Of a stretch of 64,000 nt of DNA, positions 4,959-58,604 are shown piece after piece. Numbering within the stretch: the stretch's first letter is position 1; each line of letters opens with the position of its first letter. A program made the position numbers and the translations under genes. Origin of the DNA: Hydractinia symbiolongicarpus. Taxonomy: Eukaryota; Cnidaria; Hydrozoa; Anthoathecata; Hydractiniidae. The notes under the pieces were generated by a model. It did not search any database. It saw only the letters and a program-made list of their open reading frames with translations, and was not told the DNA's origin. Location of the stretch: assembly GCF_029227915.1 (NCBI RefSeq), contig NC_079887.1, forward strand, positions 24,487,650 to 24,551,649, read 5' to 3'.

Positions 4959-5919
4959 ACAAGCACAGCTGACGCTCCTTTATAGCATTAAAGTATTGAG
5001 AACTTGCTTGAAATCGTATAATTTTTTTTCGTATAAACTGATTTTAGTGTTTGTTTTAACGAAGTAGTAAGAGCAACCAGAGTGTCGGATATTCGACACT
5101 CTCTCATTTAGTTTTCTTGGGTTCGGTCAAATATGATCAATCGCGATTTTTAAATAGACTATAATTTAAGAGAAAAAATATCTTTTATTAATTTTTGAAA
5201 TCGAATACATATAAAGAATATATATAAAGAATTAATTTTGTATCATATATTTTTGTTTTGTATAAAAGAAAATTTGCGTTATACAATGTTTGGGATTATA
5301 TAAAAGTATTCTCCAACGATTGCGTCATTATTTTTATTTTGATCGGCGAAAACTCCCACCAACCAATCACAAGGCTCAAAACAATTCTGCTCGAAGTTTT
5401 TATCCTAGTGGAGATAAACCTTTATTAAAGCTAAATTTTTGCTCAAGAATAAAAAGGATCGAAATAGAAAAAGAAGAATACTATAATTCTGCTAGTTATT
5501 TTTTTTGTTTTCATATTTTTCTGTTTGTGTCGCAAAAAGCAAAATGATTTCAAGTTACGGTTTGGAGCGAAACGGAATATAACAGAACATTTTATCAGCC
5601 AATCAGTTTCCAGACATCACAATAGTTTGTTGCGTAAATCGGCGTAAAAATCCGGCGTAAAAAAATACTAACTGGTAGCCTTATGGTAGAGCGTCTTTTT
5701 TATATCGTGATGGCGACACAGCCAGCACGAAATAAATAATAAGTCTAACCTGCATCAATCTATTATTTCTTGAATTTTTTAGAACAGTTTTGGAAGTTTG
5801 AAAGACGTGTCGTTGTCGTTGACTTATTTAAAGTATGATGGGTATATAAAATTTTATCAATTCGTTTTATAGTATGCTCAAAAGCAGTACTTTAACTTTG
5901 GTTTGACAGGCCGAAAAGC

Positions 5920-5981
5920 AACCTCGTCCCCAGGGCATCTTATATCTCTTCTGACCTCGGGACGGCGGTACGAACATGTTG
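5920..5981. mobile_element. Candidate 62-bp MITE with 9-bp target duplication
   Basis: This short segment begins CAACCTCGTCCCCAGG, the same terminus as the 6.1-kb transposon at 52457, and ends GTTG. It is flanked on both sides by the 9-bp direct repeat GCCGAAAAG (5911-5919 and 5982-5990). The right copy is itself followed by CAACCTCCG, so the direct repeat could also be read as a 17-bp tandem duplication. That makes the call ambiguous. Confidence 0.5.
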
Positions 5982-52105: not shown

Positions 52106-52376
52106 ACACCAATGAGTAGGGACACATGCCTAATAATCAGCGCAATGTAGTGAGGTCATATGTAGAATAAAAGATCCAAAAATTTCTAACACAATTCCCT
52201 AATAGTCAACGTGCATACAGGGGAAATTTCCTAGTGATACTAATATTCATCATATATCAACGCATGCGCAGTAAAGGGGGGAATTCCCTGATCGCAATAA
52301 AAAGGGGAATAACTGTGTTAGTTTTGACCGTTATGAAATTTTCCGACAGTGTTAAAATTCTATATAATAAAGAGAA

Positions 52377-52456
52377 ATGGATTCATACAATGTCAAACAA
52401 TTACGAGATATCGCAAAAGGTTGTGGACTTACGGGGTATTACAAGCTACGTAAGGC
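52377..52456 (+). pseudogene. 5' half of a SAP-like reading frame, interrupted by the 6.1-kb transposon
   Basis: ATG at 52377 opens a frame (MDSYNVKQLRDIAKGC) that resembles the SAP/Rho-N-like helix-extended motif found in mobile-element proteins of aquatic animals. It breaks exactly at the transposon insertion. The same frame resumes after the second target duplication at 58605 and runs through a proline/arginine-rich stretch to about 58710. Confidence 0.65.
52448..52456 (+). repeat. Left 9-bp target-site duplication
   Basis: ACGTAAGGC abuts the left terminal repeat exactly; the same 9 bp abut the right terminal repeat at 58596-58604. Confidence 0.93.
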
Positions 52457-52528
52457 CAACCTCGTCCCCAGGACCTCTTTTCGCTTTTTTGATATCGGGG
52501 ATGGCGCGAAGAAGAAGGCCCTGGTCCC
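52457..52528 (+). repeat. Left terminal inverted repeat
   Basis: 72 bp that match the reverse complement of 58524-58595 with two mismatches. Internally its two ends are imperfect complements, so each repeat alone could fold back. Confidence 0.93.
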
Positions 52529-53054
52529 CGCCGGTCGGATTTGCAATATGATTGGTAGCCTCACTTTCACTAATTATGCTTAAAATTTATAAACATTCCG
52601 CGAGTGAGACGAGTCGCCCGTATCATCAAGTTATAAACAAAAATGGTAGCCCCTCTGTCTGGTTGAGTGTCTGGTGCGCACATGGGAAAAGAAACTTGGA
52701 TGGAAAATAAAATAAAAAGAAGACGCAATTTTTTCATTCTGAAAATATAAAATAAAATGTTATAATTGGTTTTTCTACAGAAATGAATAGAGATATTTAT
52801 GTAGCTAGCTATTTGCAAGAAAAATAATGGTTTGTTGTTGATATGTAGTTTTGCAAATATATACATCATATATATTCACTATGTGGCAAGCTCAGTACTA
52901 GCTAGCAGTAAAAATATTTTGCCAATGTAGGTGTTGTGATTAGCTAGATGATAGTATATCTATAAAATAATTAAGAGTAATATAGCGAGAAATAGTAGGT
53001 TTGTGTACTCTACAAGGTATTTTCAAATTGGTAATCCCAAAAACTTAATTCAGA

Positions 53055-56000
53055 ATGAACAAAGAAAATAACAAGGTAAAGTATATATACTTTTTCCCTA
53101 TAACTAGCTTACATTTTTTTAAAATTGAGGAAAAATTTTTTATTATATTTTTAGGTACAAACTACACCAAAGAAGTTATATGTACGAAAAGAATACGATG
53201 AATGTCATTGCAGGGTATGTGCCAAAGCCTTCCAAAAAAAGCATATGGTGAATATATTTTCAAATAAAGCAAAAGAAAAACAATTGCAACAAAAAATTAT
53301 TAGAACATGTGGACTTAATATTACACAAGAGGATCTTTTAACAAAGTTAATATGTAGAAACTGTCACACGTTTATAAATAAAATGTGGGAATTTCGAAGG
53401 TCATGTCAAACTAATCAAATCGAGCTCCGACAAAAAGTTTCAATTAAGCGGCTGAACACTTTTTCACCCAGGAAAGACCAGGACAAAAAAAAGGTGTTAT
53501 TGGACACTACACAATGTTTAAATCAACCAAGAAAAAGGTTACAAATGTCTGTTTCTGACAATAAATCTGAAGAAAAATCAAACAACAATATAGCAACACA
53601 GGATATTTACAACAACACATCAACAATAAATATTAAATCTGTATATAATAAAGACAGTGACAAACTTTCATCTGAACCTTTTAATATATATCAACAAAAT
53701 GCCATTGAGAGAGCAATCCATACCAATCAGCCATCTGCTTTATCACATGTTATCACACAAGTACCACAAATGGATATATTACTCAAAAAGGACATAACAA
53801 CTAAAATCAATAATGCTGGCAAGAAACTGTGTAAAAGGAAAGGCAACTCATCTGTATTACTTAGTAAGGATTATACGCAGTTGTCAAGCCATACAACAGA
53901 TGAATTGTGGAAGGAATTAAGTGGTAATTTTCCTTTTGTTGTTGACATTTTCAATACTTTGTCAGGTAAATCATGTGATATTGCTGACTCTCCGAATGAG
54001 CTAAAAATACAGTATTGTTTTTTATATGCAATCTTGATGAAAAACAGATGGCATGAACTCAGTTCAATTCAGAGAATCAATAGTGTTTTGCTGATTGAAG
54101 GTGGATGCAGCAAACAGGTAAGGTTTAACATATATATACTTTCATACTTATCTAAAAAAAATTATAGCACATAAAATTTTCCTAAAAGTTTACAGAACAA
54201 TTAAAAAAATAAAAAGGAACAAAATATCAAGAACACCAATGTCTCTTTCCAAACCAAAATAGATTTGGTGTGTCAAAAATATAAGCATCATAAGCATATA
54301 TAAGAAAAAGTAAGCATATGTTAAGGCTGTGCTCAAAATACACTAGGCTTATATATAAAAAAGGTGTAATTTATCTCATGCATACATTTTGCATTTAGCT
54401 GCAAATCCGACTAAACAAGCTTGGCATTTGTTTGTCTCCTTCAAAAAAGACCAATTTGTTGGAATTAATTGGTGGGCATTTTCTTGACTCGACAATTGCA
54501 AAAATAAAAGCAGGTTGTACATTTCGGGGAACAGGCGATAACTTTGATTTAAGAATTTTGAAAGGACATATGAGAAGTGATAACGATAATGAAGATCTAC
54601 ACCTATTTGCCACCAATTTTCTGGAAAATCGTATCAACTTCACTAATTTTCCAAATGTTACACCAAGGGCAGATATCACAACAGTTCTTAGAAGTAAATT
54701 TACCTTAAATCAAGCAGAATGGAAAGCCTACATTAGCACAACAAAAATTCTCATCGCTCGAGTGCTTCTGCAATTCTTTCCAAAGTTCAGTATCTTTAAG
54801 CAAATTGTTCCTAGCCACATAGAACACAAGTACACAAATAAATTGAGCAAAAAACCATTCATTGTTTCAATGCCAATAATGGATGCAAATGAGAACAAAT
54901 ATGGTGACTGTGTGAAAATACTAAGGACATATGAGGACTGGATTGCAGAACTATATAGTAAAGCTGGCTTGTTGCAAAATTTACCCAAACGGGAACATCC
55001 ACCACTGCCTGAAGAACCTGCTTCGGTTGGTCAGACACAATCACATACGTTGTTTACAGAAGGTGATGTAATGAAGGAAATGAAAATTCCATTTTCCGGA
55101 GACCAGTTAACACGTGTGCGTTTTGCAGGTGCCAAAGACTTACTGGCTGGATCACACACTCCTACAGATCGTTTTGAACATTGCTCGCCTTTTAAGCCTG
55201 TAATGTGGCATTGCAAGGCTTCTCTTCTTCAATATTCCTACCACTTATTATATCAAGGTGATTCTGTCAATCAACAAGGAACTTTGAAATGTTTTAGAGA
55301 AAAATTTAATCGAAAAAATGCAACACCCTTCAAAGTTCTTGACTCATATGATGGCAGTGAAGAATTATTTTTAAGCATGGGAAAGGCATATATTGTAACT
55401 GCTGCAATAAAATTCTTTGGTATGACTAATCTAGATGATAAACCGACTATCCATTGTTATCCCCCTAATCTGGCACATAAGTCTACAGAAGAAAAACATC
55501 AGTATTTTGATCACGTTTTAACTGAGTTTGTCGACACATACGTTCTTCAAAAATTTGTCACTAATGAAGATGACTATGTACAGAACTATGGCCTATGCAC
55601 AATTTTTTTAACTCTCTTACTGATGCAGTTAAAAGACACAGCAAAAGAGGGAGATGGAGACAGAAATCTTATTAACCAAAAATTACTTTTGGTTGTCTTC
55701 AAATCATTAGGAGCTTACAGCAAATATGCTATTGAGATGTTTCTCAGCATAGCTCAGATGGAATGCTTATTAACTCCCAGACTTTCTGAGGAGTTTAAGT
55801 GGGGTTTTTTTAGCAACTGGAAAGGTGGGAAAGGAAATAATGTAGAGGACGATTTGGTACAAGAAATAATGAATAGAGTGACAAAGGGAATTGTTCAGAG
55901 AATGGGGGCAAATAAGTCAGTGAAATCTATCAGCAAAATCAGCAAGGCAGCAAATGGAATTAAAGAGATTGTAGAAAATTTTGATCAAAATGCTAAAATA

Positions 56001-56213
56001 CATGCATCATCGACACATCATACAACGACTGACAGTATGAAGGATGAAAAAGAAATGATAAAAGATTTAATACTGCTTGATCCATTTAACTACATAAACG
56101 GACGAAAACATCACAGTTTTCCTAACATTAAAAGATCGCCCTTGCGTTATTTAAATATAGCTGATTTTCATTTATGGGTAGAAAAGCACAAACAACTAAT
56201 TTCCTTTGTTTAA
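53055..56213 (+). CDS. Presumptive transposase: ZAD-like zinc finger plus DUF6589-like domain (932 aa, three exons)
   Basis: Exons 53055-53075, 53155-54117 and 54399-56213; both introns are phase 0 with GTAAAG/TAG and GTAAGG/TAG borders. They total 2,799 bp with no stop. Residues 24-90 form a ZAD-like treble-clef finger: C26-x2-C29, then L-x3-IC74-RN-C77-HTF. Residues 90-300 are polar and disordered-looking. From about 330 on, the sequence resembles DUF6589. It has FRGTGDNFDLR near residue 375, a middle region with AYIVTAAIKFFG, then FSNWKGGKGNNVEDDLVQEI near 800. I take D375 or D378 and a late E as possible DDE residues, but cannot prove it. By position in the element it is the likely transposase. 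It is convergent with the helicase gene. ATG 53055 was chosen as the only upstream in-frame start with a matching splice. Confidence 0.85.
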
Positions 56214-56339
56214 CATATATATATATATACCCATAAGCTGACAAAATTTGGCATTTTGGCTGATTGAATTTTTTTTGTGGATGAAATTGCAGATTTCACC
56301 AACTTTGTCATGCAATGGTATATATATATTATGTTTTTA

Positions 56340-58345
56340 CTAAACTATTTTAGGTGCATATTTGTCTATTAAAGCATATAATTCCTTAGAACACCTTTCA
56401 TTCCAAATACCAAACATAGAAAGTAAGTCTGATTCACAAGAAATAAATGCTAATTCTCTCAGGATTTCATTTACAATGTTAGTGTTAATTTTACTGTGGA
56501 AAGGAAACATCACGTTTTCATCAGAATTGATATCTTCAACCGTTTTTAACAATTCTACTTTAAGCATCTCCATATCAGCCCCAACTATGTTGCGTGCTAT
56601 CTTCTTATTGTCGTCAAGTGCGTTTAATTTGATATCAATTGCAGAATCAGCACCAACATTACAGTTCTTGCAACAGTTAATCTGAGTTTTACTCTTAAAT
56701 CCAAAATAGTTTAGCAAAAATACTCTGAGACATCTATCCCATACACAGTATTTTTTCATTGAATCACTTATATACTTAGATGCCAAATCAGAATTGTTGA
56801 CATATAAAAGTGAATCACAAGCTACACCATTTCTTCCTCCTCTTCCAATTTCTTGCACAAATGACTCTAATGTTGATGGAGGACTTATGTGAATAATATT
56901 AGATATATTTGGAGCATCAACACCCATACCTAGAGCAGTTGTAGCAAATACTACTCTAATTCGTGAATCTGACTTCTTTAACTCCTTCAATATATCCTCT
57001 TTCATTTGTGTAGTACAAGAAGCATGAAACTGTGCAAACAATCTTGCTCTAGGACAAATATTGTCACCAACATAATGATTTCTTATAACATTTTCAAATA
57101 ATTTGTACCCATACCCACAATATCTTAAATGCATGTAAATTATTGTCATGGGATAGTGTTCTCTTTGCACGTTTAATTTTTTAGCCAACGGTTTGAGAAT
57201 AACTTCAAATCCTTTCAAACCCAAGTTAGAGTTTGGGCGTCTTTGTATGTTTAAATACACATTTTTTCGATTTGGCGATACAGCAATGACTTTATACGTA
57301 ATAAGGGCGAGCGATTTAATCAAATATTCTACAGTGTCTGGTGTAGCAGTAGCGGTTAGAGCCAATGTAACAGCATCTGGGAAAAGTGCCTTTAACGTAG
57401 ACAACTCGCTAAAAATTTTTCGGAAATCCTCACCCCTATAAATCAAATAAAGCACATTAAAAGATACACATTATATATAATATATGTTATTTTATGTAGC
57501 AATATACAAAGTTTTAAATTTATGAATTTACTTGAACGGCATAGTTTTATTTATAATATATAGTATGTATGTATGTAGTTTTAAGTAGAGAGAGAAAAAA
57601 TATTTTGTTTATAATAATTAAAAATACACACTGGAAGCTTGAGTTCACCATTGACAAATTCAGGGTAGGCGAATTGATTCGTGAAGTGGAGACAACATCC
57701 AAAATAAAGTTTTACATTGTCGCATAACAAACATTTTAAAATTCGTTTCTAGCATAAAAGTGTTCGCCAGCCCTGTCTTTTTTTAAAAAAAAAACACAAA
57801 AAAAAATGATTCACTGGAGTTTTTACTTACCACATGCTTACACAATGTGCTTCATCTATAACACAACTGACAACATTTTCTTGGTAAACAGAACTTTTTA
57901 GCAATTCTCGTCCTCTGACACTAAGCAGAGATTCTGGGTGAGCAAATACTAGTTTTAATTCGCCATTTTTAATTGAAATTGGTATTTCAGGCTCACCATT
58001 CTCACCACACGAAAACAATTTTTCAGGCACAACTGTTTGCTCCAAATGAAGCACCCCAGCACCAATACCTCTCACTTCTAAAACTTTCAACTGGTCCTCT
58101 ATGATAGAATTAAGAGGGCACACCACCAATACTATATTTTGGACACTCTTTCTTGGCAAAAAGTCTGCCAACAAATGAAACAACAAGGATTTCCCAAATC
58201 CAGTAGGTAAAACACCAATAACATCATATCCATTTAAAAGATGCTCGAAACATTTAACTTGCTGTGGCTTTAAGATAATATTATTTATGTTATTAATTAA
58301 AAAAGTTTGTTGCAATCTACAAAATAATTGCAATATCTTGTCCAT
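56340..58345 (-). CDS. RecQ-like DNA helicase of the transposon (536 aa, two exons)
   Basis: Exons on minus are 58345-57831 and 57435-56340, joined within the Trp codon of the DEAH-box continuation (GTAAGT donor, TATAG acceptor). The frame is intact. The motifs are LKPQQ (Q28, motif 0), GVLPTGFGKS (Walker A, 47-53), VIDEAHCVSMW (DEAH 164-167), ALTATAT (motif III, about 199), ATTALGMGVDAPN (motif V, about 336-348) and QEIGRGGRNG (motif VI, 366). A Cys cluster follows, C402, C407, C426/427 and C430, as in the RecQ zinc-binding subdomain. This is a superfamily-2 3'-5' helicase that would unwind DNA, perhaps during excision or end processing. It lacks an obvious winged-helix RQC and HRDC domain, making it shorter than cellular RecQ proteins. 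It is encoded opposite to the transposase, tail-to-tail. Confidence 0.93.
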
Positions 58346-58523
58346 TTTGAAAAACGGAACCCTTTTAACACTTTAACTCGCCGTTCACTTTTTGAAATAA
58401 TTTTAAATTCTTAGTTTTACTCCATATATGGATGTCACATATCCATATAAAGAACTGTCGACATTTAGCAAAAGTGCTGACGCTGCAGTCTACACCCAAG
58501 ATTTCTGGGTGTAGAAAGCGGCC

Positions 58524-58595
58524 GGGTCCAGGGCCTTCTTCTTCACGCCATCCCCGATATCAAAAAAGCGAAAAGAGGTCCTGGGGACGAGGTTG
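58524..58595 (-). repeat. Right terminal inverted repeat
   Basis: Mirror of 52457-52528 with two differences, ending GAGGTTG directly before the right target duplication. Confidence 0.93.
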
Positions 58596-58604
58596 ACGTA
58601 AGGC
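58596..58604 (+). repeat. Right 9-bp target-site duplication
   Basis: ACGTAAGGC, identical to 52448-52456. Confidence 0.93.

Follow-up and report, generated by a model that had tools for sequence, protein, structure and literature searches.

A likely AcademH-type DNA transposon of Hydractinia symbiolongicarpus pairs a ZAD and DUF6589 protein with a RecQ helicase

Results and Discussion

In a 64,000-nucleotide stretch of the Hydractinia symbiolongicarpus genome (contig NC_079887.1, positions 24,487,650 to 24,551,649; hereafter the window), we found a single DNA transposon of 6139 bp (window 52457-58595) with two convergent predicted genes, both in open frames. The plus-strand gene encodes a protein with an N-terminal ZAD and a DUF6589 domain, and the minus-strand gene a RecQ helicase. 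We consider it highly probable that this is an autonomous-looking transposon of the AcademH type, in which the ZAD and DUF6589 protein would be the DDE transposase and the helicase a co-factor encoded by the element. Elements of this kind have already been described; what is less expected is the proposed role of DUF6589 as an Academ DDE transposase with an N-terminal ZAD. Also of specialist interest is a contrast in target-site stagger and partner gene between related lineages. The element helps to assign a role to DUF6589, a domain without a functional name, and a firm tie between this domain and the DDE transposases of Academ would give a name to many proteins that are still uncharacterised. 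Moreover, helicase-bearing and apparently helicase-free members with different stagger coexist in one genome, which makes the role of a helicase in DNA transposition testable; the same genome offers an intact-looking copy and at least 20 other long, stop-free DUF6589 frames.

Ends, duplications and copies of the element

The left inverted end (52457-52533, plus strand) starts with CAACCTCGTCCCCAGG and is, over 77 nt, 96% complementary to the right end (58519-58595, minus strand). Two mismatches fall within the first 72 positions, and the likeness ends after about 77. Immediately outside, the target-site duplication (TSD) ACGTAAGGC occupies 52448-52456 and is repeated exactly at 58596-58604. 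An earlier note on this stretch had described 72-bp inverted ends with two mismatches, exact 9-bp duplications and two convergent stop-free genes of 932 and 536 aa, all of which were recovered here, the splicing of both genes being predicted. When the window was searched with the terminal 21-mer, exact matches occurred only at the two ends of the element (shuffled-sequence mean 0.00).

To look at other copies, the left 244 bp were used as query on the 481-Mb assembly, which gave at least 44 matches (40 of 208 candidates scored). Nineteen copies, lying on 20 stretches, were taken, and both ends were recovered in 16 of them, or 17 with the window copy; L023, L024 and L028 were left out of the TSD count, as their two ends were not both recovered. 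Among the 17, ten have an exact 9-bp TSD, one a 9-bp TSD with one mismatch, one an exact 10-bp TSD, and five have none. Boundaries elsewhere in other copies, which the earlier note had named as evidence against a single element, were looked for, and all 16 other two-ended copies share those of the window copy, 11 of them with a duplication of their own (one of these mismatched). The five copies without a TSD (L014, L018, L020, L021 and L022) lie together at C5:19132400-19269500, spaced by approximately 30-37 kb; as their flanks are nearly identical, they are one insertion multiplied by tandem segmental duplication. Three short copies of 573-725 bp (L025, L026 and L027) are also among the 17, L027 matching the element only piecewise, at about 90-96%.

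The window copy is 98.0-99.3% identical to eight other copies over ungapped columns. Ten long copies, five from the C5 array, were checked for each gene separately, and in none are both genes open; in L020 and L022 the helicase frame is open to residue 515 of 536, and the transposase frame is broken. Copies L013 and L016 have the same internal-deletion junction and different TSDs, which fits a deletion derivative that lost part of both genes and was mobilised in trans. This deleted form at two sites, together with the high identity between copies, makes recent activity of the element plausible; of the recent or current activity proposed in the earlier note, it is the former to which these data speak. 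Ten simple deletions show either overlaps (0-4 bp) or fillers (1-6 bp) at their junctions, the random expectation being a mean of 0.79 with a probability of 0.07 for three or more (two replacements were left out of this set, and the 6-bp filler of L013 is the junction of L016). Compared with that expectation, the overlaps and fillers are not diagnostic of gap repair, and the junctions were dropped as a sign of it. Among five older left-end matches (L029-L033), gene fragments occur only in L031 and L032, and none in the other three. A further locus, L034, was left out of the analysis.

The ZAD and DUF6589 protein as putative transposase

The plus-strand gene is composed of three predicted exons separated by GT..AG introns, with an open reading of 932 aa. 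Exon 1 (53055-53075) encodes MNKENNK, and the spliced frame is open from its ATG. Exon 2 (53155-54117) contains the ZAD at approximately 53206-53433 (zf-AD, PF07776, 4.4e-13, residues 18-93 of the exon frame), while exon 3 (54399-56213) contains DUF6589 at 54699-56021 (PF20231, 5.1e-37) and the stop. Both domains had been named as ZAD-like and DUF6589-like in the earlier note, and these matches confirm them. A Pfam scan (E<=1) of the two long exons returned, besides zf-AD and DUF6589, only a sub-threshold Swi3 match, with no MULE-type transposase domain, and Pfam listed no nuclease domain in either gene of the element.

The function of DUF6589 was then approached through structure prediction. 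An AlphaFold (AF2) model from the single sequence was unusable (pLDDT 34.9), and a 99-sequence alignment was used instead, giving a model of the domain with a pLDDT of 91.5. Its best fold matches are the P-element, Hermes, RAG1 and Transib recombinases, at aligned identities of 6-13%, and likeness in the predicted fold extends to a large helical stretch ahead of the last acid. From these matches and from the acids conserved in A2 (our working label), D375 (54537-54539), D563 (55101-55103) and E817 (55863-55865), all on the plus strand, are proposed as a candidate catalytic triad. The predicted DDE-type fold therefore supports, at the level of a model, the earlier suggestion that the DUF6589-like protein is the transposase. 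Foldseek searches of the pdb and viral libraries returned nothing at E<=0.001, the DUF6589 profile had 0 matches among PDB sequences at E<=1, and a scan of viral contigs with A2 gave 25 pattern matches with no relative among them.

Among the matches listed, related DUF6589 proteins come from several cnidarian genera, namely Hydractinia, Clytia, Montipora, Desmophyllum, Dendronephthya and Paramuricea; in that same set, ZAD is listed alongside DUF6589 in Hydractinia, Clytia, Montipora and Dendronephthya, but not in the Desmophyllum and Paramuricea entries.

The RecQ helicase and its pairing with DUF6589

The minus-strand gene has two predicted exons and an open frame of 536 aa, convergent with the transposase gene. 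Its first exon (58345-57831) covers motifs 0 to II, with the Walker A sequence GVLPTGFGKS at 58187-58216 (DEAD, 2.5e-14), and its second (57435-56340) runs from the end of motif II to motif VI, the Zn-binding Cys cluster and the stop (Helicase_C, RecQ_Zn_bind). The intron thus splits motif II, leaving DEAHCVSMW before it and GEDFR after it. All three Pfam domains score above their cut-offs, the NCBIfam model recQ_fam is matched with 222.5 bits (cut-off 219.8), and the whole protein matches RECQ1 in the PDB at 6.5e-39, so that the RecQ identity proposed earlier is well founded.

Across this genome, PF20231 has at least 101 matches, of which at least 21, that of the window included, cover most of the profile in stop-free frames of at least 545 aa. 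Ten DUF6589 loci, mostly high scorers, were examined: the window, L035-L040, C5:26.53 Mb, L045 on C7 and C2:27.29 Mb. A convergent RecQ gene lies beside the DUF6589 gene in nine of the ten. The six sister loci L035-L040 are 53-63% identical to the window in their DUF6589 parts and 34-61% in their helicase pieces, and the C5:26.53 Mb locus 56% and 49-57%, respectively. The L045 locus (C7:32374500-32381500) represents a deep lineage, with 25-39% identity in DUF6589 and a convergent RecQ-like gene at 27-32%. Since so diverged a lineage also has such a gene, the pairing appears to be old.

Motifs of both proteins are largely kept in the sister families. All six sister helicases retain Walker A, DEAHC and ATxAxGMGVN at motif V, which ends in N rather than D, the Cys pairs are kept, and motif VI is intact in five. 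Likewise, the sister transposases keep the ZAD-type CR[LI]C and all three candidate acids. In L037 the first helicase exon is spread over two frames, and in L040 a stop interrupts the DUF6589 alignment and motif VI is altered; for these reasons both copies look decayed. At the ends, a left terminus resembling CAACCTCGTCCCCAGG is present in 6/6 loci and the right one in 5/6, and the inverted ends agree at 26 to 50 of their first 50 positions. Exact 9-bp TSDs flank four of the six, the TSD of L037 is mismatched at 3 of 9 positions, and for L040 the right end was not found.

A related lineage with 3-bp duplications

The tenth locus, C2:27294153-27300139 (L043, L041 and L044), is an element of 5987 bp with 358-bp inverted ends. 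Of its 1063-aa frame, a 1016-aa piece was scanned and is matched by PF20231 (4.2e-10, profile positions 191-409). The 13 kb searched contain no RecQ match at E<=1e-3. The duplication of this element is ATA, as proven by an empty paralogous site within the same 13 kb, approximately 2.4 kb past the right end, whose flanks match at 96.9% over 64 bp on the left and at 98.5% over 400 bp on the right. Four other copies of this type were inspected: two have 3-bp TSDs (CTA and TAA), one is ambiguous (3 or 5 bp, in TA-rich sequence), and one is without a right end found.

When the window and C2 lineages are compared, the surroundings of the third acid are alike (DLVQEIMNRVTKG and DLVTEYFNRETKG), the second acid is out of register, and the hhalign match is weak. 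In the C-terminal part of the C2 frame, EADTRL, DTDVL and GCDTT can be picked out by eye as letters resembling an XPG-type nuclease, for which Pfam, PDB and NCBIfam gave no match in this lineage. Overall, the C2 element is AcademX-like.

Classification against known systems

According to PMC10045372, TSDs are 9 or 10 bp long in AcademH and 3 or 4 bp in AcademX, a difference tied there to helicase versus nuclease; this also bears out the earlier statement that helicase-bearing Academ elements have been described. In PMC10799480, DEAD and Helicase_C are among the helicase domains attributed to AcademH, KolobokH or Helitron, and PMC9587614 presents KolobokH as a RecQ helicase combined with a DDE transposase. 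The window element shares with AcademH, as described in these papers, both an encoded helicase (DEAD and Helicase_C) and TSDs of 9 or 10 bp. From AcademX it differs by its 9-bp TSD, its helicase and the lack of a Pfam nuclease domain, whereas the DUF6589-related C2 element, with 3-bp TSDs and no RecQ match, resembles that group. A 9-10 bp TSD combined with a helicase, and the presence in this genome of a 3-bp lineage that lacks a RecQ match, indirectly favour the AcademH type, of which the window element is likely a new family. AcademH elements are reportedly helicase-encoding and found in animals and fungi, to judge by the title of a 2020 article by Kojima (Mob DNA 11:15).

Other superfamilies fit less well. 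The pairing of a RecQ helicase with a predicted DDE-type transposase also recalls KolobokH, as described in PMC9587614. In the window element, the helicase gene is convergent and the TSDs are 9-10 bp long. The TSD of Kolobok is TTAA, and a TTAA duplication is absent at the ends of all 17 copies. P elements and hAT elements have TSDs of 8 bp and Transib of 5 bp, so that the predicted fold is shared with them but the length of the duplication is not, and the aligned identity is 6-13%. Literature searches for DUF6589, alone or with transposase, found nothing, and PF20231 only an optics match; a link between DUF6589 and Academ has thus left no trace in the literature searched, and may well be known elsewhere, e.g., in Repbase.

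Proposed mechanism and alternative explanations

In the mechanism that we propose, the ZAD and DUF6589 protein would recognise the CAACCTCGTCCCCAGG ends and excise the element, and would then join it to the target strands with a stagger of 9 bp, or sometimes 10; filling of the gaps would generate the duplication. By analogy, the N-terminal ZAD may serve in protein pairing or DNA contact. The RecQ helicase most likely unwinds or remodels DNA, either where transposon and target meet or while the gap at the donor site is repaired. A broader reading, which we put forward tentatively and at somewhat less than an even chance, is that the Academ transposase is the DUF6589 protein, a DDE enzyme akin to those of P elements, hAT and RAG that is fused to ZAD in many cnidarian members, and that its partner sets the stagger: 9-10 bp with an ancient, co-inherited RecQ, and 3 bp where RecQ is absent and a putative nuclease-like tail is present. 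If so, the helicase would be indispensable for strand transfer or its processing rather than a passenger.

The opposite possibility, that the helicase is a dispensable passenger or a captured host gene and the DUF6589 protein transposes alone, seems unlikely to us. It agrees with the existence of the 3-bp lineage without a RecQ match, with the movement of a derivative lacking part of both genes, though help in trans explains this, and with the split helicase exon of L037 and altered motif VI of L040, which may be single decayed copies. Nevertheless, RecQ sits in the same convergent place at 9/10 loci, down to 27-32% identity in the deepest, and its motifs have been maintained across the sister families (Walker A, DEAHC and motif V in 6/6, motif VI in 5/6, Cys pairs kept). 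It is also doubtful that the element is copied out, with the helicase peeling off a strand into an intermediate, circular or linear, and the donor left in place. Helicases are expected in strand-peeling routes, and nothing in the present data shows excision; however, the nearest predicted folds are those of P element, hAT, RAG1 and Transib recombinases, which make double-strand breaks, and the copies often carry internal deletions such as failed gap repair would leave, even if this is not diagnostic.

A separate, non-Academ superfamily that acquired its RecQ independently, with long TSD and helicase arising by convergence, is considered very improbable. No direct sequence link joins the element to any named Academ protein, and KolobokH (PMC9587614) is a precedent for a RecQ helicase in another superfamily; yet a 9 or 10 bp TSD with a helicase is the very pair published for AcademH (PMC10045372), and the RecQ-less DUF6589-related lineage has the TSD length of AcademX. 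Finally, the two inverted ends could be separate small insertions that flank two genes by chance; the earlier note had named separate insertions, with duplications of their own, as evidence against a single element. Non-autonomous relatives that are short and have these ends do exist (L025-L027), but in the window, as in other long copies, one TSD is shared by the two ends, and the element recurs with identical boundaries at other places in the genome, which makes this explanation virtually impossible. The AcademH-type transposon with its own helicase thus remains the preferred interpretation.

Insertion site and a very short relative

When the flanks are rejoined with one copy of the duplication, a reading frame crosses the join (window 52374-52456 and 58605 onward), and its Rho_N match in Pfam rises from 26.2 to 29.4 bits. 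This supports an insertion at the join weakly, because the left flank frame is open even when unjoined (to 52583) and the gain in Pfam score is small. An empty site of the window insertion was looked for among the fetched loci and in the remainder of the window, though not genome-wide, and none was present. The insertion sits within a frame with a Rho_N-type N-terminus, belonging to a host or repeat gene.

A third match to the terminal 21-mer, with two mismatches, lies at window 5919. It opens a 63-bp mini-element (5919-5981) that reads CAACCTCGTCCCCAGG...CATGTTG between exact 9-bp repeats of GCCGAAAAG and is a very short non-autonomous relative with the same 16-nt end.

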